From Lachnospiraceae bacterium (GTDB lineage: Bacteria > Bacillota > Clostridia > Lachnospirales > Lachnospiraceae): a stretch of DNA of 38,075 bases. The position numbers and the translations under genes are program-made. This document shows positions 3,734 to 38,075 of this stretch, in pieces (positions within the stretch are counted from its first letter, which is position 1; each line of letters starts with the position of its first letter). The stretch is from assembly GCA_017617005.1 (NCBI GenBank), contig JAFZWW010000111.1, positions 67,392-105,466 on the forward strand. Reading direction: 5' to 3'. The notes under the pieces are model-generated. The model was not told where the DNA came from, made no database searches, and saw nothing but the letters and a program-made list of their open reading frames with translations.

Positions 3734-5041
3734 TTATTTGGTGCGGTTTTCTGTGATGCTGACCGCAAATGTCGATAAGGCAAATACGGTGATCGCAAAA
3801 ATCCTGCAGGTATAGATCCAGTGCTGTTCCGAATGATTCTCAAGAGCCGCGAACCAAACGAAAGGATAAAGGGCTATAAACAGCAGTATCCACGCATTTT
3901 TGATGTTGGATGATACCATTTTAAGGCCGATACCGTTCTTGCGATCAAGTATAATCCCTGCAAGTACTGCCAGGCAGATGATCCCGATATAAATGAAAAA
4001 TCCCCAATTAAGATAAGGTTTCAGGTTCAATCCGATGACTCTGAAGAAACCACTCACCCTGTTCAGACTTTCGGCACTCTGAAGCCTGGTATTTACGGTT
4101 GTAAATGCATTTCCGATAAGTCCCTTATATCCAAGGAGCCCTCCGATGAGCCATTTGGACATCCACATATATCCGTAACCTATAAACCAGGCTGCGCTGT
4201 TAAGGAGTATTGAAAAGAAAAGAAAATTATTCTTTTCCCCGGAAGGTGCCCGGGAGATCTTCCTGTAAGCATAAAAGACGAGCGGATATCCGAGGGATAC
4301 AAGGGGATATGTAAGGAAATCAAAATATGAAGTCAAAATTCCGAAGATAAGAAACATTTCAAAGAAGAGCTTCTTTTCTTCGAGTTTATCCCAGAACTTT
4401 ATCATCACAAAAAGAGAAAAGATCACAAGATAAAAACAGACGCTCAGGGATAACGAAGCAAAGGTACTGAAGAAAAACATAAAGGGAACGGATATAAGAA
4501 AAGCCCACGCTTCTCTTTTCATACCCTTTGAAGTCAGCTCAATAATTATCAAACAGAGCAGTATAAGCTGGAACGCAGAAAAGAACAGCCTCAGAGAACC
4601 GAAACTTGTGAAAAGGAGCAAAGGCTTCAAAAAGATAAGATAACCGTGCCAGTATCTTCCGTAGCTGACTTCTCTGTTTATATTGTTATTGGCAACATAA
4701 TCGACAAGGGAATTTCCGGGCTGCCATCCGTCGGGATATGAAGGATCGTCCAGAAACTCGGGTCTGTACATCATAAGGGACTGTTCAACGACCGAATGAT
4801 CCGGATGATCGTAGATCGCATGAAGCAGCATTATGCAATCAGTGAAATTCCCTGTGAGTGTAGCCCTGTATCCGTTGACCACAGTTTCGTCTTCGAATTC
4901 GGGAACAATAGTATCGAGCGACCAGTAAACATGCTCAAACATCTTACCGGTCGGCAAAAGGTGCACCAGGATCAGCAGAACCAATCCGATCACCGGTGCA
5001 CTCAAAAGAATTATAAGTTTTCTCAAAACAGATTTTTTCAT
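3734..5041 (-). CDS. Polytopic membrane protein of GT-C-like topology, within the ilv operon
   Basis: The predicted 435-residue protein has one N-terminal helix (about residues 8-28), a large loop of about 100 residues rich in Asp, Glu and aromatics, then nine or ten further helices. A C-terminal segment reads ENHSEQHWIYTCR just before the last helix. One helix, a large extracytoplasmic acidic loop and many more helices is the layout of GT-C lipid-linked glycosyltransferases, but no diagnostic motif was found, so this is only a topological resemblance. The ATG at 5041 follows the ilvN1 stop by 13 bases without a clear ribosome site, so translation may be coupled. An upstream TTG at 5092 would overlap ilvN1. 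There is no obvious link to amino acid synthesis. Confidence 0.7.
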   Translation of the reverse strand: MKKSVLRKLIILLSAPVIGLVLLILVHLLPTGKMFEHVYWSLDTIVPEFEDETVVNGYRATLTGNFTDCIMLLHAIYDHPDHSVVEQSLMMYRPEFLDDPSYPDGWQPGNSLVDYVANNNINREVSYGRYWHGYLIFLKPLLLFTSFGSLRLFFSAFQLILLCLIIIELTSKGMKREAWAFLISVPFMFFFSTFASLSLSVCFYLVIFSLFVMIKFWDKLEEKKLFFEMFLIFGILTSYFDFLTYPLVSLGYPLVFYAYRKISRAPSGEKNNFLFFSILLNSAAWFIGYGYMWMSKWLIGGLLGYKGLIGNAFTTVNTRLQSAESLNRVSGFFRVIGLNLKPYLNWGFFIYIGIICLAVLAGIILDRKNGIGLKMVSSNIKNAWILLFIALYPFVWFAALENHSEQHWIYTCRIFAITVFALSTFAVSITENRTK

Positions 5042-5054
5042 TGATGGAAAAAGA

Positions 5055-5552
5055 TCAGTTAGTCTCGTTCTCGGAACATTTTGCAAGGGCAAGGGTTCCT
5101 GTGCGGGCGACTTCGACTATGGAAACGCTCTTGAACATCTCAAGAAGGAGTTTGATACGTTCGGGAGAAGCACAGATCTGGATCATCATATAATGAAGGC
5201 TCAGGTCAACAATCTCTGCTTTCATCACATCACAGATCTCCATGATCTCCTGACGGTTATTTTTGTTGTATTTAACCTTCATAAGCATGAGTTCCCTTGA
5301 AACGCACTGGGACTCGCTGAAGGTTTTGACCTTAATGACATCAAGCTTTTTGTTGAGCTGCTTTTCGATCTGTTCAAGAGTTCTCTCATCACCGGATGAA
5401 ACGATCGTCATGGAAGAAACGGTAGGATCGTCTGTCTCACCTACGGCAAGAGAATCGATATTAAAATTTCTGCGGGAAAAGAGTCCGCTGACCTTGCTCA
5501 GCACACCGGCTCTGTTTTCAACATTTACGGAATAGATTCTTTTATCTTTCAT
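5055..5552 (-). CDS. ilvN: Acetolactate synthase regulatory subunit, copy 1 (ilvB-proximal)
   Basis: The 165-residue product has an N-terminal ACT domain (NVENRAGVLSKVSGLFSRRN) and a C-terminal small-subunit domain (EVARTGTLALAK). It lies 66 bases downstream of ilvB, as expected for the partner of the catalytic chain. The ATG at 5552 has GAGG at suitable distance; an upstream in-frame ATG at 5588 would add twelve poorly conserved residues. It differs from copy 2 over most of its length (for example NRAGVLSK against NNSGVLSR), so the copies may respond to different end products. It is also less typical in its C-terminal half, with KYNKNNRQE where copy 2 has RTAPSEREN. Confidence 0.93.
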   Translation of the reverse strand: MKDKRIYSVNVENRAGVLSKVSGLFSRRNFNIDSLAVGETDDPTVSSMTIVSSGDERTLEQIEKQLNKKLDVIKVKTFSESQCVSRELMLMKVKYNKNNRQEIMEICDVMKAEIVDLSLHYMMIQICASPERIKLLLEMFKSVSIVEVARTGTLALAKCSENETN

Positions 5553-15323: not shown

Positions 15324-17018
15324 CTATTTTATATATGTCAATTCAATATCGTCAAATTCAATCGATTTTATCTTTGAATCAAATTCAACGATTTCCGTGG
15401 ACGGATCCGAATCCACAAGCCGATAATTTGAATCAAGTAATCTTTCATGATCACCAATACCGTATCTGCCGATACATATTATGTCCTCACCATTATAAAT
15501 ATATGCATATTCGGCATCATATAAGACAGCAATCGGTCCGGAACTGTATGCGGTAAGATAATCGCATAAAGGCATTTCTATAATATCCTGGTAATACCAA
15601 TCATATAATGTAAATTCGTGCAATCTGTAATTTGATACCACTTCGTTCTTATATAAAAGCGGGTAAAATTCTCCTATGCATGTAAAATAAACTGTGTCTT
15701 TGGTTCCCTCAATCATGTATTCATTAATATTTTTGCCTATAATAAAATCAGATATATCAGGAGTATTTTCTTCATAGTCCGGATTAAAGAAAACTCTTTC
15801 TACAGAATCCAATATTTCATCATAAACATATTCATAATTCATGCTTAGCATAGAAACCATGCCATGTGAAGGAATGTAATCCTTCTCTGTTGCCATTCGT
15901 GAAAAATCGATTCTCTGATGGGCATATGGTATATATACACTTGAGAGATTGATGATCTGATCATTATTGGTGTAATAAAACTGAATGATCAGACTGCCTT
16001 CCATTGAATCCGGAAAAGTATTTACAAGTTTTTCAAGACGCTTAATGTCAGACCGGATTATTTCATCCGGCATTCTTATTTCAATATCCACCCATGTCCT
16101 GTCTGATATATCGGTCAAATAATCCTTATAATCTGAATACAATACCGGTTTTCCGATGACAAATTCATCAAACAAAAAATCACATTCAAAATTACATATT
16201 TCATTCATTTCAAATGAATACTTTTTATATTGAAAATTTTCTTTATAAACATCCAAAGAACCGTCAGGCTTTAACTCCACATAGGCTGTGACCGGAACGT
16301 TTTTCCAAAACAGCTGAACACAATATGTATTACAGCCGGGTCGTATATAATCAACACACCTGCAAACCTCACCCTTTGATCCGTCCGTAGAATTCATTCT
16401 GAAATCTTCGGAATACGTATTCTCAAGATACCTGACCGATGCAGTCATTACCTTGAATTCGTTTGTATTCATGCCATTTACAGATAATTTCTCATTATTT
16501 ATATATAAAAAAATTAAACTGAAAATAATGATGAATATTATTTCGAAAACATTGACTTTTCTGAATAGTCTGCTTGTGTGCAGTACTTTATGTATTTTTT
16601 TGATCTTAGCGATCAAAATACTGATCGGCTTATTGAACGCTTTTGCTTCGAGCAATATTACAACATTTGATATCACATTCATAAGATTGACAAATGGCAT
16701 TATACCAATTTCATTCAAAGGTATATTGCTTAAAGATACCGCATAACCAAAACAAATGTAATAATCAACGCCCAGAAAACAAATAGAAAGGATAAGCAGG
16801 ATCGATGACAGGATCTTGGATTTTTTATTTTCGGAAACAGATGATGTGATTGTCAGAACGCTTGTAAGATAGGAAGCAAAATACAAAATTACAAGCCTGC
16901 CCCACCATTCAAATATAGAACCCGGAAAAAATAAAAAACAGATGACTTTACAGACCAGGGCAGAAACTCCCAAAATAAAGCCAAACTGTTTTTTGTTTGA
17001 AGATTTATTATTTTCCAA
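15324..17018 (-). CDS. Unknown membrane protein with large extracytoplasmic domain
   Basis: I do not recognise this protein. About 180 N-terminal residues contain five hydrophobic helices. After the last helix (ending LIFLYINNE) some 390 residues look soluble, with many Tyr, Asp and Glu and no cofactor motif seen; they are presumably outside the cell. The TTG at 17018 is preferred because GGAGG lies nine bases upstream; an ATG at 17045 in the same frame would add nine residues. The gene is clearly more AT-rich than its neighbours, which suggests transfer or weak constraint. It follows ackA by 70 bases and may be read from the pta promoter, as no terminator was found between them. Nothing in it points to acetate metabolism. 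Confidence 0.7.
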   Translation of the reverse strand: MENNKSSNKKQFGFILGVSALVCKVICFLFFPGSIFEWWGRLVILYFASYLTSVLTITSSVSENKKSKILSSILLILSICFLGVDYYICFGYAVSLSNIPLNEIGIMPFVNLMNVISNVVILLEAKAFNKPISILIAKIKKIHKVLHTSRLFRKVNVFEIIFIIIFSLIFLYINNEKLSVNGMNTNEFKVMTASVRYLENTYSEDFRMNSTDGSKGEVCRCVDYIRPGCNTYCVQLFWKNVPVTAYVELKPDGSLDVYKENFQYKKYSFEMNEICNFECDFLFDEFVIGKPVLYSDYKDYLTDISDRTWVDIEIRMPDEIIRSDIKRLEKLVNTFPDSMEGSLIIQFYYTNNDQIINLSSVYIPYAHQRIDFSRMATEKDYIPSHGMVSMLSMNYEYVYDEILDSVERVFFNPDYEENTPDISDFIIGKNINEYMIEGTKDTVYFTCIGEFYPLLYKNEVVSNYRLHEFTLYDWYYQDIIEMPLCDYLTAYSSGPIAVLYDAEYAYIYNGEDIICIGRYGIGDHERLLDSNYRLVDSDPSTEIVEFDSKIKSIEFDDIELTYIK

Positions 17019-17088
17019 TACAAAGCACCTCCAATTATCGGTCATCCCCCCGGTAACTGAATACGTACGGACTGTATTATTTTTTTGA

Positions 17089-22690: not shown

Positions 22691-23488
22691 TTATACTTCA
22701 ATGCATTCGCTGGGAACATCTCTTTTCGCTACGCTTATATCGAAATCGGAAGCCCTGTAGGGATTGTCTCCCATCGTTATCTCCATCCTGACTGATTCAA
22801 ATGCAAGATCGGGGTAATTATTTTCTTTTGACAGATGTCCGAGGAATACTTTGCGGATGCCGTCATTTAAAACAGATGAAAGAAGCTTTCCTGATGCTTC
22901 GTTTGAAAGATGTCCTTTTTCACCGAGGATCCTCATCTTTAGAGGATAAGGATAGGAGCCGTTCTCAAGCATCCTGATGTCATGATTGGCTTCAAGTAAA
23001 AGTGCATCCATTCCCGACAGACATTCACACGTATAATCGGTATAGCATCCGAGATCGGTGCATACGGCGATGTTCTTATCATCTTTACGGAATCTGTATG
23101 CTACGGGATCTGCGGCATCATGGGATATCTTCATCGGAGCTACCGATATGTCACCGAGTTCAAATCTCTCATCACTTCTTACAATGTTGAAAAGCGATGT
23201 GTCTATGGATCCGAGACTTTTCATCCGGAGTATCGCATCGATCGTGGCTTCCGTTGCATACATCGGAACACCGTATTTTCTTGAAAAAACTCCGAGTCCC
23301 TGGATGTGGTCGGAATGCTCATGTGTGATAAGTATTCCCGTTATATCCCTTCCGGTGAGTCCGATGGAATTTAGACCCTCTTCAGCTTTTTTTCCGCTGA
23401 CTCCGATATCAACAAGAAGGTGCGTATCATCGGAACCTACATAGATGCAATTACCGGAAGATCCGCTGTAGAGCGGGCAAAACCTCAT
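22691..23488 (-). CDS. WalJ/YycJ-type metallo-beta-lactamase-fold hydrolase
   Basis: The 265-residue product has the metal motif THEHSDHIQGL, with further ligands in KISHDA and LLEANHD and a late His in FLGHLSKENN. The start MRFCPLYSGSSGNC is typical of the YycJ/WalJ group, proposed to be nucleases acting in DNA repair or replication. Here it is encoded with polA and coaE rather than with the walRK two-component genes. Its ATG overlaps the preceding stop by four bases (ATGA). The exact substrate is unproved. Confidence 0.9.
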   Translation of the reverse strand: MRFCPLYSGSSGNCIYVGSDDTHLLVDIGVSGKKAEEGLNSIGLTGRDITGILITHEHSDHIQGLGVFSRKYGVPMYATEATIDAILRMKSLGSIDTSLFNIVRSDERFELGDISVAPMKISHDAADPVAYRFRKDDKNIAVCTDLGCYTDYTCECLSGMDALLLEANHDIRMLENGSYPYPLKMRILGEKGHLSNEASGKLLSSVLNDGIRKVFLGHLSKENNYPDLAFESVRMEITMGDNPYRASDFDISVAKRDVPSECIEV

Positions 23489-25578
23489 TTCTTATCCTCC
23501 CATCTTACCTCTATGACATCTCCGTCCTTGAGAGGTTCGAGATACTGGGCATTCTTTCCGTTAAGAAGGGTTATGATACCACGGCCCTTGCTGTCCTTCA
23601 GATTAAAATTCAATTTGTCGAAAATATCGACAAATACGTATTCGTCCTTGCCGGTAAGGGTGAAGATCCTTCCGTTGGCAGTGACGGAAACTTTGTTCTC
23701 AATCACAGGAGCGGACTCTTTGGATTCGGGAGCCTTTTCTACGGCGGGTTCTTTTGCCTTAAGATCCTGTTCTTCGGGTTCGGCAAGATTTTCGTATGTG
23801 TCCTCTTTAGACTCGGAAGGCTTAAACTGACCGAGTTCAAATTCAAGGGTAAAACCCTCATAAACCTTGGTCGAAAGAACCGCGGGAGTCTGATTTACGA
23901 GGATATTATCGGAAATGGGAAGGTCAAGGAATTCACCGATCTGTTCGACGGTATAGAAATTATTGACCTTGATATCATCCCCTTCGGCGATCTCATAAAA
24001 GCTTTCCTTGAGTTCGCCGTTTACAACAGCCTTACGGGGCATCTCGAATTCTTTTCCGTTAACGGTGATCTTAACCGCGGACTTCATCTCGGCAAGTTCT
24101 CCGAGAGTCAGATGTGCATCCTCGCCGGGAGTGGATGCTTTTACTTCGATCGCATCTCCGCTCCTTATCTGTGAATAAAGATCGGCATTTTCACCGTTAA
24201 TGATGATCTGCGATGATTCGCCGGTTGTTCCTCGGACGATCCTGCTCTTTCCGCCGATGTTAAATGTGATGGCCTTGCCTCTCTTGGGGAAGAGATCCTC
24301 ATTGGGGAACGCAACCTGAAGAGCTGCATCACTTACGGTAAGATGTCCGTTATCATAAAGCTTAAGTCTTTCTCCGTTGAAGGTAACGAAGATGAAATTA
24401 TTGCTCTGTACATAGAAGCTGAGGCAGATACCGATGGGAGTGACCATAAGGGAATCCCTCTGGGCATTCTCATCCTCGAAGATGATGTCCTTCATGACAT
24501 CCTCTCCCCTTACTGCAACACGCTCCTTTAGTATTCCGAGTTTTTCTGAAAGCTTTTTGGTATATCCCGGTACCATTCCTCCGCCGCCGACAACGAATAC
24601 GGCGCTGACAGGCTTGTCACCGTTCAATCTCTTGATCTCTTCGGCAACCTTCGATGTCATATCATCGATATAAGGATCGAGCGCCTGCATGATCTCATCG
24701 GACTTAACCTTCTGGGGAAGTCCCATGATATCAGTAAAATCAATCTCGGGAGTTCCGTCACCGAGGCTTCTTTTTATATGCTCTGCCATATCGAAATCGA
24801 CAAGACATTTCTGTACGATGCAGTCTGTAAGTGAATCTCCGGCAACAGGGATCATTCCGTAAGCAACGATGCTTCCGTCCCTTGTGATGGAAATATCTGA
24901 GGTTCCGGCACCGACATCAACAAGTGCAAGATTGAGGAGTCTGAATTTATCGGGGATAGCAACCTGGATGGCTGCAATGGGCTCGAGAGTAAGGTTAGCT
25001 ACATGAAGTCCCGCGTGCTCGACAGCTTTATAAAGTCCGTCGACAACATCATCGGGAAGGAAGGTTGCTATAAGATCGGCTGCGATCTTCCTTGCCTTAT
25101 GCCCCTCCAGATTACCCATCTGATAACCGTTCAGGTAATAACGCATGGGAGTATAACCCACGCAATAGAATTTCATATCGGTATCGTTCTTGCTCTGGAA
25201 TTCGGAATAAGCAAGCTCGATGCCCGACATGGAAAGATTATAGATATCTTCATCCGTGACTTCTTTTTCGGCATCGAAATCCATAGTCACGTTTACGGTA
25301 ACTGTCCTGAGAACACGGCCTGCCGCTGCGATGCATACTTCACCGAGCTTCTTGCCGAGTCTGTCCTCGAGTTTCTTTTTTACATCACGGATAGTGTCTC
25401 CGACCTTACCGATATCATGGATCTGACCGTCGAGCATTGCCCTTGATTCATGCTCCTTGATCTCCTGTGCAAGAACATGAAATCCGTCATCTGCTTTGTA
25501 GCCTACGGTTCCGACAATGCTTCTGGTGCCGATATCAAGTCCGAAAACAAGCTGTCCCTGACTCTTTACTCCACCCAT
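23485..25578 (-). CDS. FtsA-like actin-fold ATPase with repeated C-terminal modules
   Basis: Residues 1 to about 395 form an actin-like ATPase: phosphate-1 motif FGLDIGTRSIVGTV (12-25), phosphate-2 ALVDVGAGTSDISI (218-231) and adenosine motif VVGGGGMVPGY (329-339). FtsA tethers FtsZ at the division site and is about 400-450 residues, but this protein continues to 697. The extra region holds at least three short units ending in a similar pattern: NGENADLYSQIRSGDAIEV (461-479), VNGELKESFYEIAEGDDIKV (519-538) and NGKNAQYLEPLKDGDVIEV (673-691). A low-complexity linker (about 586-625) precedes the last. No clear C-terminal amphipathic helix is visible. It overlaps coaE by 13 bases. It may be a paralogue of the main FtsA rather than FtsA itself. 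Confidence 0.8.
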   Translation of the reverse strand: MGGVKSQGQLVFGLDIGTRSIVGTVGYKADDGFHVLAQEIKEHESRAMLDGQIHDIGKVGDTIRDVKKKLEDRLGKKLGEVCIAAAGRVLRTVTVNVTMDFDAEKEVTDEDIYNLSMSGIELAYSEFQSKNDTDMKFYCVGYTPMRYYLNGYQMGNLEGHKARKIAADLIATFLPDDVVDGLYKAVEHAGLHVANLTLEPIAAIQVAIPDKFRLLNLALVDVGAGTSDISITRDGSIVAYGMIPVAGDSLTDCIVQKCLVDFDMAEHIKRSLGDGTPEIDFTDIMGLPQKVKSDEIMQALDPYIDDMTSKVAEEIKRLNGDKPVSAVFVVGGGGMVPGYTKKLSEKLGILKERVAVRGEDVMKDIIFEDENAQRDSLMVTPIGICLSFYVQSNNFIFVTFNGERLKLYDNGHLTVSDAALQVAFPNEDLFPKRGKAITFNIGGKSRIVRGTTGESSQIIINGENADLYSQIRSGDAIEVKASTPGEDAHLTLGELAEMKSAVKITVNGKEFEMPRKAVVNGELKESFYEIAEGDDIKVNNFYTVEQIGEFLDLPISDNILVNQTPAVLSTKVYEGFTLEFELGQFKPSESKEDTYENLAEPEEQDLKAKEPAVEKAPESKESAPVIENKVSVTANGRIFTLTGKDEYVFVDIFDKLNFNLKDSKGRGIITLLNGKNAQYLEPLKDGDVIEVRWEDKK

Positions 25579-31985: not shown

Positions 31986-32657
31986 TTAATCTCTGATCTG
32001 CCAGTCTATCGGAGTGATACCGTTTGCCGACAGATAATCATTACATTTTGAAAAGGGCCTGCTTCCGAAGAATCCCCTGTATGCAGAAAGAGGACTCGGA
32101 TGAGCGGATTCTATCACAAGATGCTTCGGATTGGTGATGAACACCTTCTTCGCTCTCGCAGCAGAACCCCATAGGATGTAAACAATGGGTCTGTCCTGCG
32201 CGGCAACCGCTTTGATAGCTGCATCGGTAAATTCTTCCCATCCCATACCTTTGTGTGAAAAAGCCTGGTGGGCCCTTACGGTAAGAAGCGAATTCAAAAG
32301 AAGAACTCCCTGCTCGGCCCAATATGTAAGATCGCCGCTCTGAGGAATGGTGCATCCCAGATCGGTATTAAGCTCCTTATATATGTTTTCAAGTGAAGGC
32401 GGTTTCTGAATTCCTTTTTTTACGGAAAAAGAAAGACCGTGAGCCTGGCCCGGTTCGTGATAAGGGTCCTGCCCCAGAATGACAACCTTGACTTCGGAAA
32501 GCGGAGTAAGATTAAATGCTCTTAATACATCATCTTTGGGAGGATATACAGTCTGAGTCTGATACTCTTTAACGATGAAAGAATAGAGTTTCTTATAATA
32601 TTCCTTGCCGAACTCGGCTGACATAAAAGGCAGCCAGTCATTATCAATTACGGACAT
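31986..32657 (-). CDS. ung: Uracil-DNA glycosylase
   Basis: Family 1 uracil-DNA glycosylase removes uracil from DNA. The water-activating Asp is D64 in GQDPYHEPGQAHGLSFSV and the catalytic His is H186 in SAHPSPLSAYRGFFG. The 223-residue length is standard. The ATG lies one base after the hisF stop and has no strong ribosome site, so it may be coupled to hisF. Its place between hisF and lysA is not functional grouping. Confidence 0.97.
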   Translation of the reverse strand: MSVIDNDWLPFMSAEFGKEYYKKLYSFIVKEYQTQTVYPPKDDVLRAFNLTPLSEVKVVILGQDPYHEPGQAHGLSFSVKKGIQKPPSLENIYKELNTDLGCTIPQSGDLTYWAEQGVLLLNSLLTVRAHQAFSHKGMGWEEFTDAAIKAVAAQDRPIVYILWGSAARAKKVFITNPKHLVIESAHPSPLSAYRGFFGSRPFSKCNDYLSANGITPIDWQIRD

Positions 32658-32658
32658 A

Positions 32659-33417
32659 TCACAGTCTGACGCTGACAGAGCGTTCCTTTAAATATTCTTT
32701 GACTTCCCTGATCTCAAGTTCCTTATAGTGGAAAAGCGATGCAGCAAGAACTGCGGATGCACCTGCTTCGATGGCATCATAAAAATCCTTACAGCTTCCG
32801 GCTCCTCCGGATGCAATAACGGGAATGTTAACATTGGATGCTATAGCCTTGGTAAGCTCAAGATCGTAACCCGCCTTTGTTCCGTCCGCATCCATAGATG
32901 TAAGAAGGATCTCACCCGCACCGAGCTTTTCGGCTTTGATGGCCCATTCGACGGCATCTATGTTCATATCGACTCTTCCGCCGTTCTTATAAACGGTCCA
33001 TCTGTCGGCTCCTTCGATCCTCTTCGCATCCATCGCAAGAACAACACACTGAGAACCGAATTTCATCGCAGCATCGGAAATAAGATCCGGATTCATAAGA
33101 GCTGCGGAGTTAACCGCAATCTTATCCGCGCCTTCACGAAGGATTGCTTTGAAATCATCCGTAGTTCTGATACCGCCGCCAACCGTGAAAGGAATGAAAA
33201 GCGTGGAAGCCACATCCCTTACCCATGAAAGCTGTGTATCACGAGAATCTGCGGAAGCGGTGATGTCCAGGAATACAACCTCATCTGCACCCTGTGCATC
33301 ATAAGCAGCAGCTGTTTCTGCGGGATCACCGGCATCCTTGAGATTTAAGAATTTTATTCCTTTTACGACTCTCCCGTCCTTAACATCAAGACAGGGGATA
33401 ATACGTTTAGTGAGCAT
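32659..33417 (-). CDS. hisF: Imidazole glycerol phosphate synthase, cyclase subunit
   Basis: HisF uses ammonia from HisH to form imidazole glycerol phosphate and AICAR in histidine synthesis. The catalytic D11 in [15 protein letters not shown] and the second Asp in VLAMDAKR are present, as are the phosphate loops VGGGIRT and ASGGAGS. The 252-residue length is normal. Its ATG overlaps the hisH stop (TAATG) with AGGAG upstream. Confidence 0.97.
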
Positions 33418-34031
33418 TAAAGTTCTCCTGCGATCTTTAAGAAATTGGTCAGGACCTTAAGTCCGGCATCAGAACTCTTTTCCGGATGGAACTGTGTCGC
33501 GAAGACATTTCCGGATTCAATGGATGAATCGTAATCAATACCGTATGAAGTCTTCGAGGTGACAATATTTTTATCTGCTGCATCCAGGAAATAAGAATGA
33601 ACAAAGTAAAAGAATGTTCCGTCATCGATTCCTTCAAACAGCCTTCCTTTTACGGAAGTGACATCATTCCAGCCTATCTGGGGAACCTTGAGTTCATCGG
33701 ATGAAGTAAATCTTTTTACTTTGCCTGAAAGAATTCCGAGTCCGGGAACTCCCGGTGATTCTTCACTTTCGTCAAACAAGAGCTGAAGTCCGACACATAT
33801 ACCGAGGAAACATTTGCCGGATGCGGCAAAATCCCTGATCGCGGAATCCAATCCTCTTGATCTTAATTTATCCATGCAGTCGCCGAAATTTCCGACGCCG
33901 GGTAAAATACAGGAATCTGCGTTTCTGATGACTTCGGGATCGGATGTGAGTACATGCTCTGCCCCGAGTTTTTCGAGAGCCTTCTCAACGCTTTTTACAT
34001 TTCCTGCATCGTAATCAACTACAGCAACCAT
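33417..34031 (-). CDS. hisH: Imidazole glycerol phosphate synthase, glutamine amidotransferase subunit
   Basis: HisH hydrolyses glutamine and passes ammonia to HisF. The triad is C79 ([12 protein letters not shown]), H182 and E184 ([13 protein letters not shown]). The 204-residue length is normal. AAGGAG lies five bases before the ATG and directly after the stop of the large acidic protein, suggesting coupled translation. Other his genes are not in this window. Confidence 0.97.
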
Positions 34032-34040
34032 TACCGCTCC

Positions 34041-36974
34041 TTAAGGATTAACAAATACTATATCCGAACCGGGATCTTCTTCACCGGGTATCACATCCTG
34101 AATGGGTTCGGGCTCCGGCTCAGGTTCAGGCTCCGGCTCAGGTTCGGGCGTAACACCGTACATACCTTCAACAACCTGATATATCGCTCTGGTATATTCG
34201 ACATCACTCCTGATCATCGCGATCTCTTTTGCCTGATCTTCGGTAAGTCCGTATCTGGATTCAAGTTCACTCAGAAGCTGTCTGTATATGGGTTCAACCT
34301 CATCAAGGCATCCCCACTTGACAGCCGATGCATAAAGTTCAGGATATCTGTTAACGGTCTGAATAAGCGAATCAAGAGCCTTAACATCGGACTCTTCCTT
34401 GAGGAGATCATATTCTCTCTGGAAAAGTCTGATCTTCAGGATACATTCGGATTTCTTGAAAATGATCTTATCGGAATCATTCAGTTCCTGACCGAAAAGA
34501 TCCTGGTATGCGGTCTGGTAGTCGCCCTGTGCGTATGCCTGTCTTGCTTCACGCTTAACATGGTACGCTCCCATGAGGCTTGAAACAATGAGCACGGCAA
34601 CAAGAACGGTTACGCAAAATGCAAATACTGCAATGACCTTCTTCTTATTAAGCTTCTTTGAAGGCTTCTCATCTTCAACGGGAGCCTTTTCCTTTTTGGG
34701 CTTCTTTTCCTTTTTCTTCTTGCCCTTCTTGGCGTCGCCGTCAACTTCTTCGCCTACGCCATCCATCTCGGCAGCTTCGGCGTTCTTATCCTTCTTGCCT
34801 TTTTTCTTTTTCTTCTTTTTACCTTTTCCGCCTTCACCCTCGGCATCGAGTTCTTCGAGAATTGCGGCATTTTCTTCGGAAAGCTTTATCTCGCTTGCAG
34901 AACCCTCTTCATCATCATCGGTCTCCGTGAGCATATCAAGGATCTTGGAAATAAGGCCTTTCTTCTTCTCGGGCTTCTTTTCCGCATCAAGATCTCTTAT
35001 CTCACTGAGAGGATCGATCTCAGGTTCTGCAGACGCAGAATCAGTCGAAGGTATATCAAATGCCTTCTCAAGGGAAACTTCTTCAGGTTCCTCGTCACCG
35101 AATGACCCGCCCATGATCTCGGCAAGAAGTGAATCGGTCTCATCAAGCGGAGAAGGTTCGGATGCAGGTTCTTCGGAGGGTTCCACGGAAGGAGCTTCGG
35201 ATTCTCCGGATACAGAAACAGGTTCATCGATCGCGGAAGCAGCGGCATTCTTAACTTCCGCAGCAGCCTCAGCAGCACCGGCCAAAAGTGCATCAACATC
35301 TGACATATCGGCATTTTCAGCGTTCTCACTTGAGATCTCGTTTTCTTCGCCGACATTTCCGCCAAGCTTCTTAGCCTTCTTGGCTTCAGCTTTAAGTCTT
35401 GATTTTTCCTCTTTTGCTTTTCTTCTGGCTTCCTTCTTTTCTTCGCGAAGACGCTTTTTCTCGGCAGCCTTATCAAGAACGGGCTCTGCTTCGGTACTTT
35501 CTTCTCCGAGCACATCGGGAACTTCCGTATCATCGGTTCCGTTAAGAAGAGCTTCGATCTCTTCACCGACAGCCTCGTTATTGTCGCTCTTATCGAGAAG
35601 AGCTCCGATATCGGATGCGGAACCGCTGTCCGCAGCAAGAAGCTCATCAAGACTCATTTCCGATCTGTCGGCATCTTCGGCAAGACCTTCGGTTTTGGCT
35701 TTGTTCAGAAGTGCTTCGATATCATCCTCGCCGGGAAGATCTGCTGATTCATTCTCTTCCTTCATAAGCTCGGCAAGTTCTGCATCGAGGTCAAAATCGG
35801 ATACATCCGAAGCATCGGAGGATTCCTTATCTTCCGCAGGCTTTCCGTCCACATAAGCAGAATCATCCGAAGTCTTTATCTCAAGATTGTCGTTTTCATC
35901 AAGGGTAATACCGCTCTCGTTCAAAAGTGCGGCAAGCTGTGCATCAAGATCATCGCCGCCCGTAGCAAGCTCAGGTTCGGACTCGGGAACGGGTTCGGAT
36001 TCAAGCGTGATGTCCGGTTCGGACTCGGGAATGGGTTCGGGCTCGAGGGCAATCTCAGGTTCGGGCTCGGGAACCGGTTCGGTTTCGAGTGTGATCTCCG
36101 GTTCGGACTCTGCAGGAACATCCTCTGCTTCGGCCTCGGGTTCGATCTGTTTCATAAGGTCGTTCATGAGGTCGGTGAGATCTGTTTCCGCACTGAGATC
36201 CTCATCGGGAATCTCAAGAGAAGGAGCAGAATCTATATGAATATCAGATGCCGCAGGATCTTCATTAATGATAGTTTCAAGATCCGGAATATCGGCGGAA
36301 TGATCTATAGGGGCCGGAGCTTCCTCAGCAGGAATTTCAACTGCGGGAGTATCATCAACAACAGGTTCCTCGGCGGGAATTTCCTCGGGGATATCTATAA
36401 CAGGATTATCTACAAGCGGGGAATCATCGACTTCTTTCAGAAGTGAATCAAGGTCCAGATCATCAAATGACATCTGAACTTCTTCAACAGGAACTTCAGC
36501 AGAAGGTACAGCTTCTTCCATCGCGGGCTCTTCCATTGCAGGTTCTTCCGCTGCGGGTTCCACAACTTCGGGCTCTTCCGTCACGGATTCATCTGCAACA
36601 ACTTCTTCAACAACGGGCTCATCAAGAAGTGATGAAAGATCCTCTGAAAGAATATCCGAAAAATGCTCTTCTATCGGTGCCTGAACTGTCGGCTCTTCCG
36701 CAGGTATATCGATCCGGATATCCTCTGCGGCAGATTCTTCGACAACAGGTTCATCTGTTGGAATATCAACCTGTATATCCTCTGAGACAGGTTCCGGAGC
36801 AGCAGGTTCATCTGTCAGCGAATCATCCGTAAAAACGGCATCGGGAACTATCGGAGCCTGTGCGGCAGGTTCCTGTGCTTCCGGTTTTGATGCTGCTTTT
36901 GTGGGGGATGCAAGCTCGGCGGGAACACCCATCGATCTGAGCAAACTGTCAAGATAATCTTCAGAAGAACTCAT
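34041..36974 (-). CDS. Giant acidic membrane-anchored protein with repeated EIxALL motifs
   Basis: I do not recognise a family. Residues 1 to about 715 are very acidic and Pro/Ala-rich, hence probably disordered. Short Leu-Leu motifs recur through it: LDSLL (8-12), LDSLL (175-179), LDAQLAALLNES (343-354), DIEALLNKA (418-426), SLDELLA (441-447), DIGALLDK (455-462), EIEALLNGT (472-480), DVDALLAG (559-566) and TDSLLAEIMGG (613-623). A charged, probably helical block (503-536) and Lys-rich stretches (about 717-774) precede one membrane helix (780-804). By the positive-inside rule the N-terminal part is cytoplasmic. Outside are about 135 probably helical residues and a Pro-Glu repeat tail (about 939-952). 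The gene heads an operon with hisH, hisF, ung and lysA and lies after a chemotaxis receptor gene. GGAG supports the ATG. Confidence 0.8.
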   Translation of the reverse strand: MSSSEDYLDSLLRSMGVPAELASPTKAASKPEAQEPAAQAPIVPDAVFTDDSLTDEPAAPEPVSEDIQVDIPTDEPVVEESAAEDIRIDIPAEEPTVQAPIEEHFSDILSEDLSSLLDEPVVEEVVADESVTEEPEVVEPAAEEPAMEEPAMEEAVPSAEVPVEEVQMSFDDLDLDSLLKEVDDSPLVDNPVIDIPEEIPAEEPVVDDTPAVEIPAEEAPAPIDHSADIPDLETIINEDPAASDIHIDSAPSLEIPDEDLSAETDLTDLMNDLMKQIEPEAEAEDVPAESEPEITLETEPVPEPEPEIALEPEPIPESEPDITLESEPVPESEPELATGGDDLDAQLAALLNESGITLDENDNLEIKTSDDSAYVDGKPAEDKESSDASDVSDFDLDAELAELMKEENESADLPGEDDIEALLNKAKTEGLAEDADRSEMSLDELLAADSGSASDIGALLDKSDNNEAVGEEIEALLNGTDDTEVPDVLGEESTEAEPVLDKAAEKKRLREEKKEARRKAKEEKSRLKAEAKKAKKLGGNVGEENEISSENAENADMSDVDALLAGAAEAAAEVKNAAASAIDEPVSVSGESEAPSVEPSEEPASEPSPLDETDSLLAEIMGGSFGDEEPEEVSLEKAFDIPSTDSASAEPEIDPLSEIRDLDAEKKPEKKKGLISKILDMLTETDDDEEGSASEIKLSEENAAILEELDAEGEGGKGKKKKKKKGKKDKNAEAAEMDGVGEEVDGDAKKGKKKKEKKPKKEKAPVEDEKPSKKLNKKKVIAVFAFCVTVLVAVLIVSSLMGAYHVKREARQAYAQGDYQTAYQDLFGQELNDSDKIIFKKSECILKIRLFQREYDLLKEESDVKALDSLIQTVNRYPELYASAVKWGCLDEVEPIYRQLLSELESRYGLTEDQAKEIAMIRSDVEYTRAIYQVVEGMYGVTPEPEPEPEPEPEPEPIQDVIPGEEDPGSDIVFVNP
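34111..34146 (-). repeat. Tandem 18-bp repeat coding the Pro-Glu tail
   Basis: Two adjacent 18-base units (34111-34128 and 34129-34146) are identical except for the last base and encode part of an alternating Pro-Glu stretch. Such a repeat can change length by slippage without breaking the frame. Confidence 0.75.
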
Positions 36975-37031: not shown

Positions 37032-37059
37032 AATATATTTTAGCACACTGCATTGTCAA
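37032..37059 (-). promoter_or_regulatory. Promoter of the acidic protein-hisHF-ung-lysA operon
   Basis: On the minus strand consensus TTGACA (37054-37059) and TATATT (37032-37037) are separated by 16 bases. The 5' leader would be about 50 bases, ending in GGAG before the ATG at 36974. Confidence 0.65.
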
Positions 37060-37127: not shown

Positions 37128-38075
37128 TTAAAGTCTGAAGAACGAGATTGCCTGGCTCATATCCTCATTCATCTTACGCATCTGTGCTGTAGAATTCTGA
37201 GTGTCGGTACAGGAGTCTGTAACAGTCTGGCAGGATGCCGCAACTTCCTGAGCGGATGCACCGAGTTCTTCCGATATTGCTCCTAATTCCGTGGTGGAAT
37301 TGGTGAGCTCATTCTTGATCTTATCAAGAGTGCCTGTCATATTCCTGATCGTTTCGATCTCAGTGATGGAAGCTTCAACAGAATCCGAAAGGACATTGAA
37401 TCTTTCCTGAGCCTGTTCGATATCCGACTGTTCATTCTTGATAACATCATATACTCGATTGGATATATCAACGGTCTTCTTGGAAAGAGCGATGACGTTT
37501 TCAATGATCTCTTTGATCTCTTTTGCGGATTCAGCCGAAGAATCTGCAAGGCTTCTGATCTCATCGGCAACAACCGCAAATCCTCTGCCGGACTCTCCGG
37601 CTCTTGCAGCCTCGATCGAAGCATTGAGTGAAAGCAGGTTTGTCTGGGAAGCAATCGATTCGATAGCCTGGATTGCGGTTCCGATGTTTTCGATCGCTTC
37701 ATTGGTCTCCTTGATCTTCTCTGCAATCTCATCCATTGCATCGACTGATTCCTTGGATCCCTTATAAACGGAATTCATACATTCAGCCGCATCGTTATTG
37801 GCATTCTTGATAGTTTCCGATGCTTCGTGAAGAATACTTACATTGTTATGGAGTACTTCGATATTCTCACCAAGCTCGGCAGCCTTTTCAGCCATGTTCT
37901 GGGCATTTTCCGCAACGCTCTGTGATGTCTCCGCAACTTCATTGACTGCGATGTTGATCTGGGAAATGGACTCAACATTATTGCCGGTCATTTCATCAAC
38001 GTCAACTATCGAGCTGTTAAGATCCTCAGCCGTGGTCTTGACCGATGACATCGAAGATGTAAGTGCATCCCTGAG
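37128..38075 (-). CDS. Methyl-accepting chemotaxis protein, C-terminal part (5' end outside window)
   Basis: The frame is open to the right edge, so the N-terminal sensor and membrane helices lie outside. What remains is the long coiled-coil cytoplasmic domain. The hairpin tip that binds CheA and CheW reads [20 protein letters not shown], followed by [15 protein letters not shown]. The heptad-rich arms contain many Glu, Gln, Ser and Asn, including possible methylation pairs. The C-terminus (AISFFRL) shows no CheR-binding pentapeptide. It is the last gene of its transcript, with a terminator 26 bases past the stop. Ligand specificity cannot be told from this part. Confidence 0.95.

Follow-up and report, generated by a model that had tools for sequence, protein, structure and literature searches.

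A membrane-anchored acidic protein with FliM/FliY-like motifs that co-occurs with the flagellum in Lachnospiraceae

RESULTS

Architecture of the 977-residue protein

In a window of 38,075 nucleotides from a Lachnospiraceae bacterium (contig JAFZWW010000111.1), we analysed an open reading frame (ORF) at 34041..36974 on the minus strand that encodes 977 amino acids from an ATG (P0001) and would specify a membrane-anchored acidic hub protein, hereafter the hub. An initial annotation made from the letters alone had described an acidic arm with recurring motifs reminiscent of the N-terminus of the flagellar switch protein FliM, Lys-rich blocks, a single membrane-spanning helix and, beyond it, a small outer domain. 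This architecture is borne out by the sequence and by structure models, and the gene belongs to a family whose presence follows that of the flagellar genes across Lachnospiraceae.

Residues 1–777 form the acidic, cytoplasmic arm, and the first 795 residues (E 18%, D 11%; D+E 29%) contain one hydrophobic stretch. A Lys-rich block read from the sequence lies at about residues 502–538, and a Lys-rich juxtamembrane stretch (residues 718–779; 34638..34823, all features here and below being on the minus strand) precedes a single membrane helix (residues ~780–802; 34569..34637) that is seen both as the hydrophobic stretch and as a helix in the models. Beyond it lie an all-helical outer domain in AlphaFold2 (residues 803–945; 34140..34568) and a C-terminal tail of ~30 residues. 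We infer that the N-terminus of the arm lies in the cytoplasm because of the positive-inside rule. Residues 771–945 were modelled by AlphaFold2, using a 78-row alignment, as seven helices with a mean predicted local distance difference test score (pLDDT) of 96.2, and structure comparison gave no convincing match between the outer domain and a solved fold.

No named family was found for the protein in Pfam or NCBIfam scans at E values up to 0.1, at which level MapZ domains were not matched either; matches to Pfam Trypan_PARP (19.7 bits against a cut-off of 100) and NCBIfam TonB (15.6 bits against a cut-off of 265) were rejected as composition artefacts. Pfam gave no FliM or SpoA domain in the 977 residues, and the genuine FliM and FliY of the host genome sit on another contig.

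Motifs of the cytoplasmic arm

The motifs named at the outset, EIEALLNGT at residues 472–480, DIEALLNKA, DVDALLAG and DIGALLDK, are all located in the ORF. Counting the pattern [DE][ILVMY]xxL[LMF] (aHxxLL) in residues 1–777 gave eight sites, far above the mean of 0.45 and the maximum of 3 in 1000 shuffles within 40-residue windows, while the mirror pattern was observed once in the same arm (0.43 expected). A stricter pattern, [DE][IV]x[AS]L[LMF], was observed four times (0.04 expected), placing the D/E-I-x-x-L-L core above chance. The earlier count of about ten motifs holds only with the N-terminal DYLDSLL and with looser forms (MSLDELL, LAALLN, DSLLAEIM) added to these eight aHxxLL sites.

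Conservation was assessed in a full-length alignment with 13 close relatives whose outer regions are 68–86% identical; two of these loci (L204 and L216) come from one metagenome-assembled genome (MAG), and L207 and L034 are one and the same contig. The best-conserved part of the arm is the N-terminal motif SEDYLDSLLRSM (residues 4–15; 36930..36965; predicted helix 4–14), which is 95% identical across the relatives and is seen in 13/13. DLSSLL (residues 112–117; 36624..36641) retains the pattern in 0/13 and is without a predicted helix, and DLDSLL (residues 174–179; 36438..36455; helix 175–183) is weakly conserved in 7/13. All 13 relatives keep DLTDLM (residues 265–270; 36165..36182; helix 262–277), ELAELM within DLDAELAELMKEENE (residues 399–404; 35763..35780; 96% identity; helix 396–409), the FliM/FliY-like DIEALL (residues 418–423; 35706..35723; DIEALLNKA from 418; helix 416–428), the core of DIGALLDKSDNNEAV (residues 455–469; 35568..35612; DIGALLDK at 455; helix 453–461) and the pattern of the FliM/FliY-like EIEALLNGT (35535..35561; helix 471–477); 12 of them keep the FliY-like DVDALLAGA (residues 559–567; 35274..35300; helix 557–581). 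Three further segments complete the arm: a short motif of another type, DSLLAEIMG (residues 614–622; 35109..35135; helix 609–620), that is invariant in the 14 alignment rows, the amphipathic GLISKILDMLTE (residues 673–684; 34923..34958; helix 674–683) and the conserved LSEENAAILEELD (residues 698–710; 34845..34883; helix 700–712).

Overall, identity to the query is 47% in the cytoplasmic linkers as compared with 78% in 14 hand-chosen motifs (random placement, P = 0.0002), and sites defined by regular expression have a mean identity of 0.74 versus 0.53 for random placement (P = 0.013). The expectation that motifs persist while linkers drift thus stands for six of the eight aHxxLL sites, at which the pattern is retained in 12–13 of the 13 relatives, but not for DLSSLL and only weakly for residues 174–179.

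The full-length AlphaFold2 model (14-row alignment; mean pLDDT 49.5) was read solely for disorder and local helices. Most linkers have a pLDDT of about 30 and are therefore probably disordered, and short helices with a pLDDT of about 50–75 are predicted on the N-terminal motif (4–14) and on seven of the eight aHxxLL sites, the eighth, unconserved site at residues 112–117 having none.

The motif excess extends to the wider family. In the query and its 79 relatives taken together (L113, an unrelated protein, was excluded from all motif counts) 143 aHxxLL sites were observed against 26.2 expected, with at least one site in 60 of these 80 proteins. A motif of the E-x-Y-L-D-x-L-L type lies near the N-terminus in 63 of the 80, with Glu in 62 and Asp in 58 of these; only the Glu, the Asp and the spread are free findings, because the pattern itself requires the Tyr and the hydrophobic residues. 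Four of the 17 proteins without it (L039, L045, L052, L098) have lost their N-terminus to contig ends or runs of N. The DIGALLDKSDNNEAV segment has a counterpart in other genera, L-x-[DE]-I-x-x-L-L-x-K-S-D-N-x-E-x-V, for which a loose regular expression matched 26/80 proteins, and by eye GFFxKLFxxL and DENxxILxELD of other genera resemble GLISKILDMLTE and LSEENAAILEELD, respectively. As a separate observation, 14 of the 80 proteins (L063, L072, L073, L080, L082, L090, L092, L096, L101, L104 and L107–L110) carry a zinc-ribbon-like CxxC...CxxC at the N-terminus, mostly preceding the E-x-Y-L-D-x-L-L type motif.

Likeness to the N-termini of FliM and FliY

For comparison with the motifs, the N-termini of the FliM and FliY encoded in the same genomes were taken from 40 flagellar regions of genomes carrying the gene. 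The FliM N-terminus reads LSQ[NSDEQ]EIDxLL in 40/40 regions and that of FliY LSQ[DE]EI[NDS]ALL in 34/40, with a near variant in three more (37/40); the remaining regions are L127 and L139, where the LSQ cap differs, and L150, where the FliY call is a spurious ORF. The N-terminal SEDYLDSLLN-type motif of the family is collinear, column by column, with FliM SQNEIDALLN. EIEALLNGT, DIEALLNKA and DVDALLAGA have the core in common with FliM/FliY but not the LSQ cap, and the full LSQxEIxxLL profile is absent from the 977-residue protein, being approached solely by arrays in some relatives.

These are tandem arrays of the LS[AP]D[DE]IAAL[FM] type, which share LS..EI.AL with FliY: L052 has 11 LSADEIAAMF and two variants, L066 has seven motifs (six LSPDDIAALF), L043 six of the LSADDIAA[LM]F type, and L039, L086 and L048 four, three and two, respectively. 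The corresponding pattern, LSx[DENQS][DEQ][IVL]xx[LM][LFM], has 40 matches in the 80 arms (10.9 per 10,000 amino acids), one match in 639 neighbouring ORFs (0.05 per 10,000) and two in 979 other flagellar-region ORFs, spurious ones included (0.09 per 10,000).

The family and its co-occurrence with the flagellum

The distribution of the family was determined in 200 Lachnospiraceae genomes from 199 genera. Used as a single-sequence query, the outer region has matches in 85 of these, and a profile search has matches in 89, of which 84 are clear (weakest E value 7.6e-19) and five weak (2.7e-5 to 5.5e-4). Among 391 genomes of the class there were 13 strong matches, the query included, all in Lachnospiraceae, with matches outside the family at E values of 1.1e-5 or worse; clear members were found only in Lachnospiraceae. 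Their lengths and repeat content vary, with open frames of 323–1218 residues among 79 loci, a few of which are cut by contig ends. The labels of 70 named loci read Lachnospiraceae, Acetatifactor or Roseburia except for four (bacterium, Bacillota bacterium, Muribaculum sp. and Bacteroidales bacterium), which are probably binning or naming errors, the Bacteroidales one (E value 8e-5) possibly being a chance match. Among MAGs labelled Muribaculum/Bacteroidales, JAMPGV010000032.1 (L253), with 45% identity, has probably been misbinned or mislabelled, and CAMTOW010000014.1 (L273) matches weakly.

FliM was found in 110 of the 200 genomes, as a native type in 89 (at least 166 bits), a divergent type in 19 (98–148 bits) and weak matches only in two (G042 and G133), which are probably FliY. 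The co-occurrence count leaves out the weak profile matches (G028, G070, G073, G129 and G183) and a low-complexity BLAST match (G051); retrieval was incomplete for G147, G131, G170 and G016. The gene is present in 81/89 genomes with native-type FliM, in 0/19 with divergent-type FliM and in 3/92 others, and its presence therefore follows flagellar genes across Lachnospiraceae, as had been suggested as a check. Two of the three exceptions (G147 and G042) have FliG and CheA, and the third (G174) is 76% complete. The divergent-type flagella may have been gained by transfer; in published profiles of Lachnospiraceae, the flagellar genes of unrelated members, C. bolteae among them, are reported to group together (PMC6130602).

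For the state of the locus where the gene is missing we inspected 40 hisF loci, one from a native-FliM genome, five from divergent-FliM genomes and 34 from others; they come from genomes negative in the single-sequence search and show the locus state rather than fresh evidence of absence. The gene precedes hisH in none of the 35 loci that could be ordered, with profile scores of 0.06 or worse. Two near-complete genomes (G068 and G120; 96 and 100%) have CheA, no FliM or FliG, and no gene before hisH. The cheV of G068 is full-length and stops 62 bases upstream of hisH, and in G120 (L166, about 4911–5381) cheV is reduced to its CheW part, the stop of which overlaps the hisH start; gene loss is the simplest reading of both loci. 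A third CheA-only genome (G040) has neither the gene nor cheV at hisH. Because G068 and G120 keep CheA and cheV sequence without the gene, it is apparently the motor, not the kinase, that the gene accompanies. We consider it very probable that the gene is linked to the flagellum.

Genomic locus and promoter region

In the window the hub ORF is followed, 9 bases downstream, by the start of hisH (33417..34031), then by hisF (32659..33417) and ung, encoding uracil-DNA glycosylase (31986..32657), and all three are conserved neighbours; hisH is probably on the same transcript as the hub gene. On the other side lies a gene for a methyl-accepting chemotaxis protein (MCP; 37128..38075; Pfam MCPsignal, 1e-31) that is cut by the contig end. 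A genome of the same genus has the order cheV-MCP-gene-hisH-hisF-ung, with cheV just beyond the MCP counterpart.

Neighbours were sought within five genes at the 78 of 79 loci that could be ordered (all except L039), and hisH was found in 71, hisF in 73 and ung in 64. A cluster of genes of ~300 residues lies upstream on the same strand in 66 of the 78, and some of the other 12 loci end directly upstream. A member carries a CheW domain (8e-30) together with a receiver domain (1e-17), by which we identify the cluster as CheV. With a narrow sequence pattern, an upstream MCP gene could be recognised in only 2/78 loci. The receptor gene that the initial annotation placed beside the ORF is real, but the conserved chemotaxis neighbour is cheV.

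Upstream of the hub ORF, 37032..37059 contains a sigma-70-type promoter-like site, TTGACA-16-TATATT, matching at 11 of 12 positions; it is a consensus match only, two such sites being found versus 1.2 in shuffles.

Apart from these features, a family of 160–330 residues (cluster c4, e.g. at L057) lies between cheV and the orthologue in 27 loci. The scanned member has no Pfam match at 0.01, and a Sir2-like identity considered for the cluster was dropped for want of a Pfam match. Elsewhere in the window, ORFs of 573, 452 and 284 residues (15324–17045, 3734–5092 and 213–1067, respectively) have no Pfam match at 1e-5, and a 697-residue protein with an FtsA/PilM/MreB-like domain (23485–25578; 1e-9 to 1e-12) is encoded near coaE and polA.

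Candidate partners encoded in the same genomes

The CheY of the host is close to that of Thermotoga (about 1e-50), the matched structure, 4iga, being a complex with FliM. The aromatic switch residue is Phe in all 37 CheY genes found in the flagellar regions, and the P-loop signatures of FlhF and FlhG were each found in 37 of the 40 regions.

In both FliM and FliY, the EIDALL helix is the docking site of phosphorylated CheY (CheY-P) (PMC9126983, PMC6946799). FlhG is reported to dock on the FliY N-terminus in Bacillus and Geobacillus, the first 36 residues being necessary and sufficient (PMC12327844), and in polar flagellates to dock on that of FliM (PMC12826062). As FlhG binds the same FliM/FliY N-termini, it is a candidate equal to CheY.

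Of the 61 CheV receivers encoded beside the orthologues, 59 carry Gln where the aromatic switch residue would be, the local pattern not being found in the other two, which disfavours CheV as a partner through canonical FliM-type docking; the non-canonical CheV4 of Vibrio is described as having Ala at that position (PMC8789113).

DISCUSSION

Our leading reading, which we hold tentatively and at somewhat less than even confidence, is that the protein acts as a flagellum-associated, mostly disordered membrane hub that would mimic the FliM/FliY N-terminus and gather CheY-P and/or FlhG. In such a model the outer helical domain and the membrane helix would anchor the hub in the envelope while the long acidic arm would extend into the cytoplasm. 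The N-terminal E-x-Y-L-D-x-L-L helix and the internal D/E-I-x-x-L-L helices, which are predicted to resemble the switch-protein N-termini of the same cells, would display several copies of the docking site of the cytoplasmic ring (C-ring) away from, or next to, the motor. Proteins that bind FliM/FliY N-termini, namely CheY-P and/or the MinD-like ATPase FlhG, would thereby be gathered or buffered at one membrane place. CheY and/or FlhG are put forward as the probable partners because of the known docking, the aromatic switch of CheY, the FlhF and FlhG signatures and the Gln of CheV.

Several findings weigh against this reading. With respect to the motifs, 20 of the 80 proteins are without any aHxxLL site, and the mirror pattern is also enriched across the set (43 versus 25.5 expected), so that general amphipathic-helix content accounts for part of the motif excess; residues of the same types taken from other parts of the arm give an expected identity of 0.57, slightly closer to the 0.74 observed than random placement does (0.53). 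Tyr-Leu replaces the Glu-Ile of FliM in the N-terminal motif, LS-type strict motifs are confined to 11 of the 80 proteins, and a strict FliM/FliY matrix found no site of at least 8 bits in the 977-residue protein, its best being 7.4 bits versus at least 26.5 for the training FliM/FliY segments. This matrix takes the acidic arms as background and therefore inflates the scores of ordinary proteins (W, C and H score high); the comparison between proteins was made by regular expressions instead.

As regards the flagellum, eight native-FliM genomes lack the gene, and these include drafts (G128, G146 and G199; 68–70% complete) as well as the complete G014 (99%). An underpowered tree-aware test on hisH+hisF comprised 119 loci (79 with and 40 without the gene; 108 with a callable hisF), with G042 entered as FliM-positive on FliG evidence. 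The best tree showed 13 and 14 changes but just four supported independent pairs, three or four of which went as expected (in a few pairings one was opposed; median p = 0.25), and the reverse test gave five pairs, three going the same way and two without difference. Finally, a sigma-D-type (flagellar) promoter was found upstream of the gene in 0/76 cases, the promoter-like site being of the housekeeping type and the gene perhaps co-transcribed with hisH; upstream of cheV sigma-D-type promoters were found in 1–3 of 61 cases, near the level of shuffles (mean 0.2–0.8, maximum 2–3).

A stronger form of the hub reading is possible, although unlikely. Here the protein would be a dedicated motor-switch decoy scaffold whose several docking copies (about a dozen in some species) compete with the C-ring for CheY-P and FlhG, with arrays that change in copy number by tandem duplication. 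If true, it would couple the site of flagellum building to flagellar switching.

Among the alternatives, it is possible, although unlikely, that the protein is a flagellar landmark whose motifs or N-terminal E-x-Y-L-D-x-L-L recruit FlhG, FliM/FliY or FlhF and that places or counts flagella in the manner of HubP/FimV. The binding of FlhG to FliM/FliY N-termini (PMC12826062, PMC12327844), the binding of HubP partners to acidic cytosolic modules (PMC8789113), and the FlhF and FlhG signatures in the flagellar regions would all agree with such a role, as would a gene that tracks the flagellum rather than CheA, and a housekeeping-type promoter-like site would suit it. However, a landmark does not specifically predict the FliM-like detail of the motifs or the cheV neighbour, and the 36 residues of the FliY N-terminus are longer than the EIxxLL core, which alone may not suffice.

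We regard as similarly improbable a flagellum-linked hub that binds something else, such as CheV, CheC/CheX or a cell-wall enzyme, the likeness to FliM/FliY being a convergence of short amphipathic helices. The heterogeneity of the motifs (DLTDLM, ELAELM and DSLLAEIM beside EIEALL), the enrichment of the mirror pattern in the set and the position of cheV speak for it, whereas the LSADEIAALF-type arrays have LS..EI.AL in common with FliY and the Gln of the CheV receivers makes canonical FliM-type docking less likely.

Also unlikely, and slightly more so in our estimation, is a CheY-P buffer or relay in which the motifs bind CheY-P specifically, tuning free CheY-P or concentrating it near the array or motor. 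EIDALL-type motifs are a known CheY-P docking site (PMC9126983), and the reading accords with the conserved cheV neighbour, the Phe switch of CheY in 37/37 cases and the match of the host's CheY to that of Thermotoga. The two genomes that retain CheA together with cheV (in one of them reduced to the CheW part) yet lack both the gene and FliM/FliG fit only if the motor, and not the kinase, matters. That the hub is an ordinary low-complexity acidic protein, its motifs the chance of composition and its presence shared ancestry, is very improbable: the arm is indeed acidic and repeat-rich and the tree-aware test was not significant, but the window-shuffle and mirror controls, the motif conservation, the predicted motif helices, the single locus and the near-perfect co-occurrence across 199 genera argue against it.

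The family is a concrete, widely conserved and testable candidate for flagellar placement or steering in Lachnospiraceae. These flagellated commensals are prominent in gut and rumen, yet the two processes are, to our knowledge, little studied in them; the literature matches listed for the landmarks FlhF and FlhG concern other bacteria. Since Lachnospiraceae flagellin is known to act in the gut as an immune signal (PMC3720852), genes tightly tied to these flagella matter beyond motility. If the motifs bind CheY-P or FlhG, the hub would be a natural multivalent competitor of the C-ring. The literature matches listed, with subscription journals mostly outside their coverage, contain no description of the family or of a multivalent FliM-N-like scaffold, and none of those listed describes a natural multivalent C-ring competitor as a control principle.

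Comparison with known systems

With the FliM/FliY docking motif the hub shares the D/E-I-x-x-L-L core (LSADEIAALF of relatives versus LSQDEINALL of FliY) and the N-terminal position of its best-conserved copy; it differs in being no C-ring protein, in having many copies per chain and in its E-x-Y-L-D-x-L-L N-terminal copy. Three further systems are set beside the hub by description. The C-terminal peptide of CheZ, outside the C-ring, binds CheY. Archaeal CheF is likewise a non-C-ring protein contacting CheY, although at a surface other than that used by FliM (PMC9126983). In B. subtilis, GpsB-FlhG confinement offers a non-C-ring protein that possibly holds FlhG in place (PMC12327844), but GpsB is a cell-cycle regulator.

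The landmark proteins HubP/FimV of Gammaproteobacteria, finally, have in common with the hub a single membrane helix, a very long acidic repeat-rich cytoplasmic arm and an association with flagella and chemotaxis. They belong to another phylum and have a periplasmic LysM domain (PMC8789113, PMC12918733), whereas neither LysM (at E values up to 0.1) nor the C-terminal cytoplasmic FimV tetratricopeptide repeat (TPR) domain was matched in the hub by Pfam or NCBIfam, the C-terminal domain of the hub lying beyond the membrane helix. The order of the hub is the reverse, with an N-terminal arm and a C-terminal outer domain, and the hub alone has FliM/FliY-N-like motifs in its arm and a cheV-his-ung locus. 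Because it is without LysM and the FimV C-terminal domain and has this reversed order, the hub is not a member of HubP/FimV, although by analogy it may work like one.

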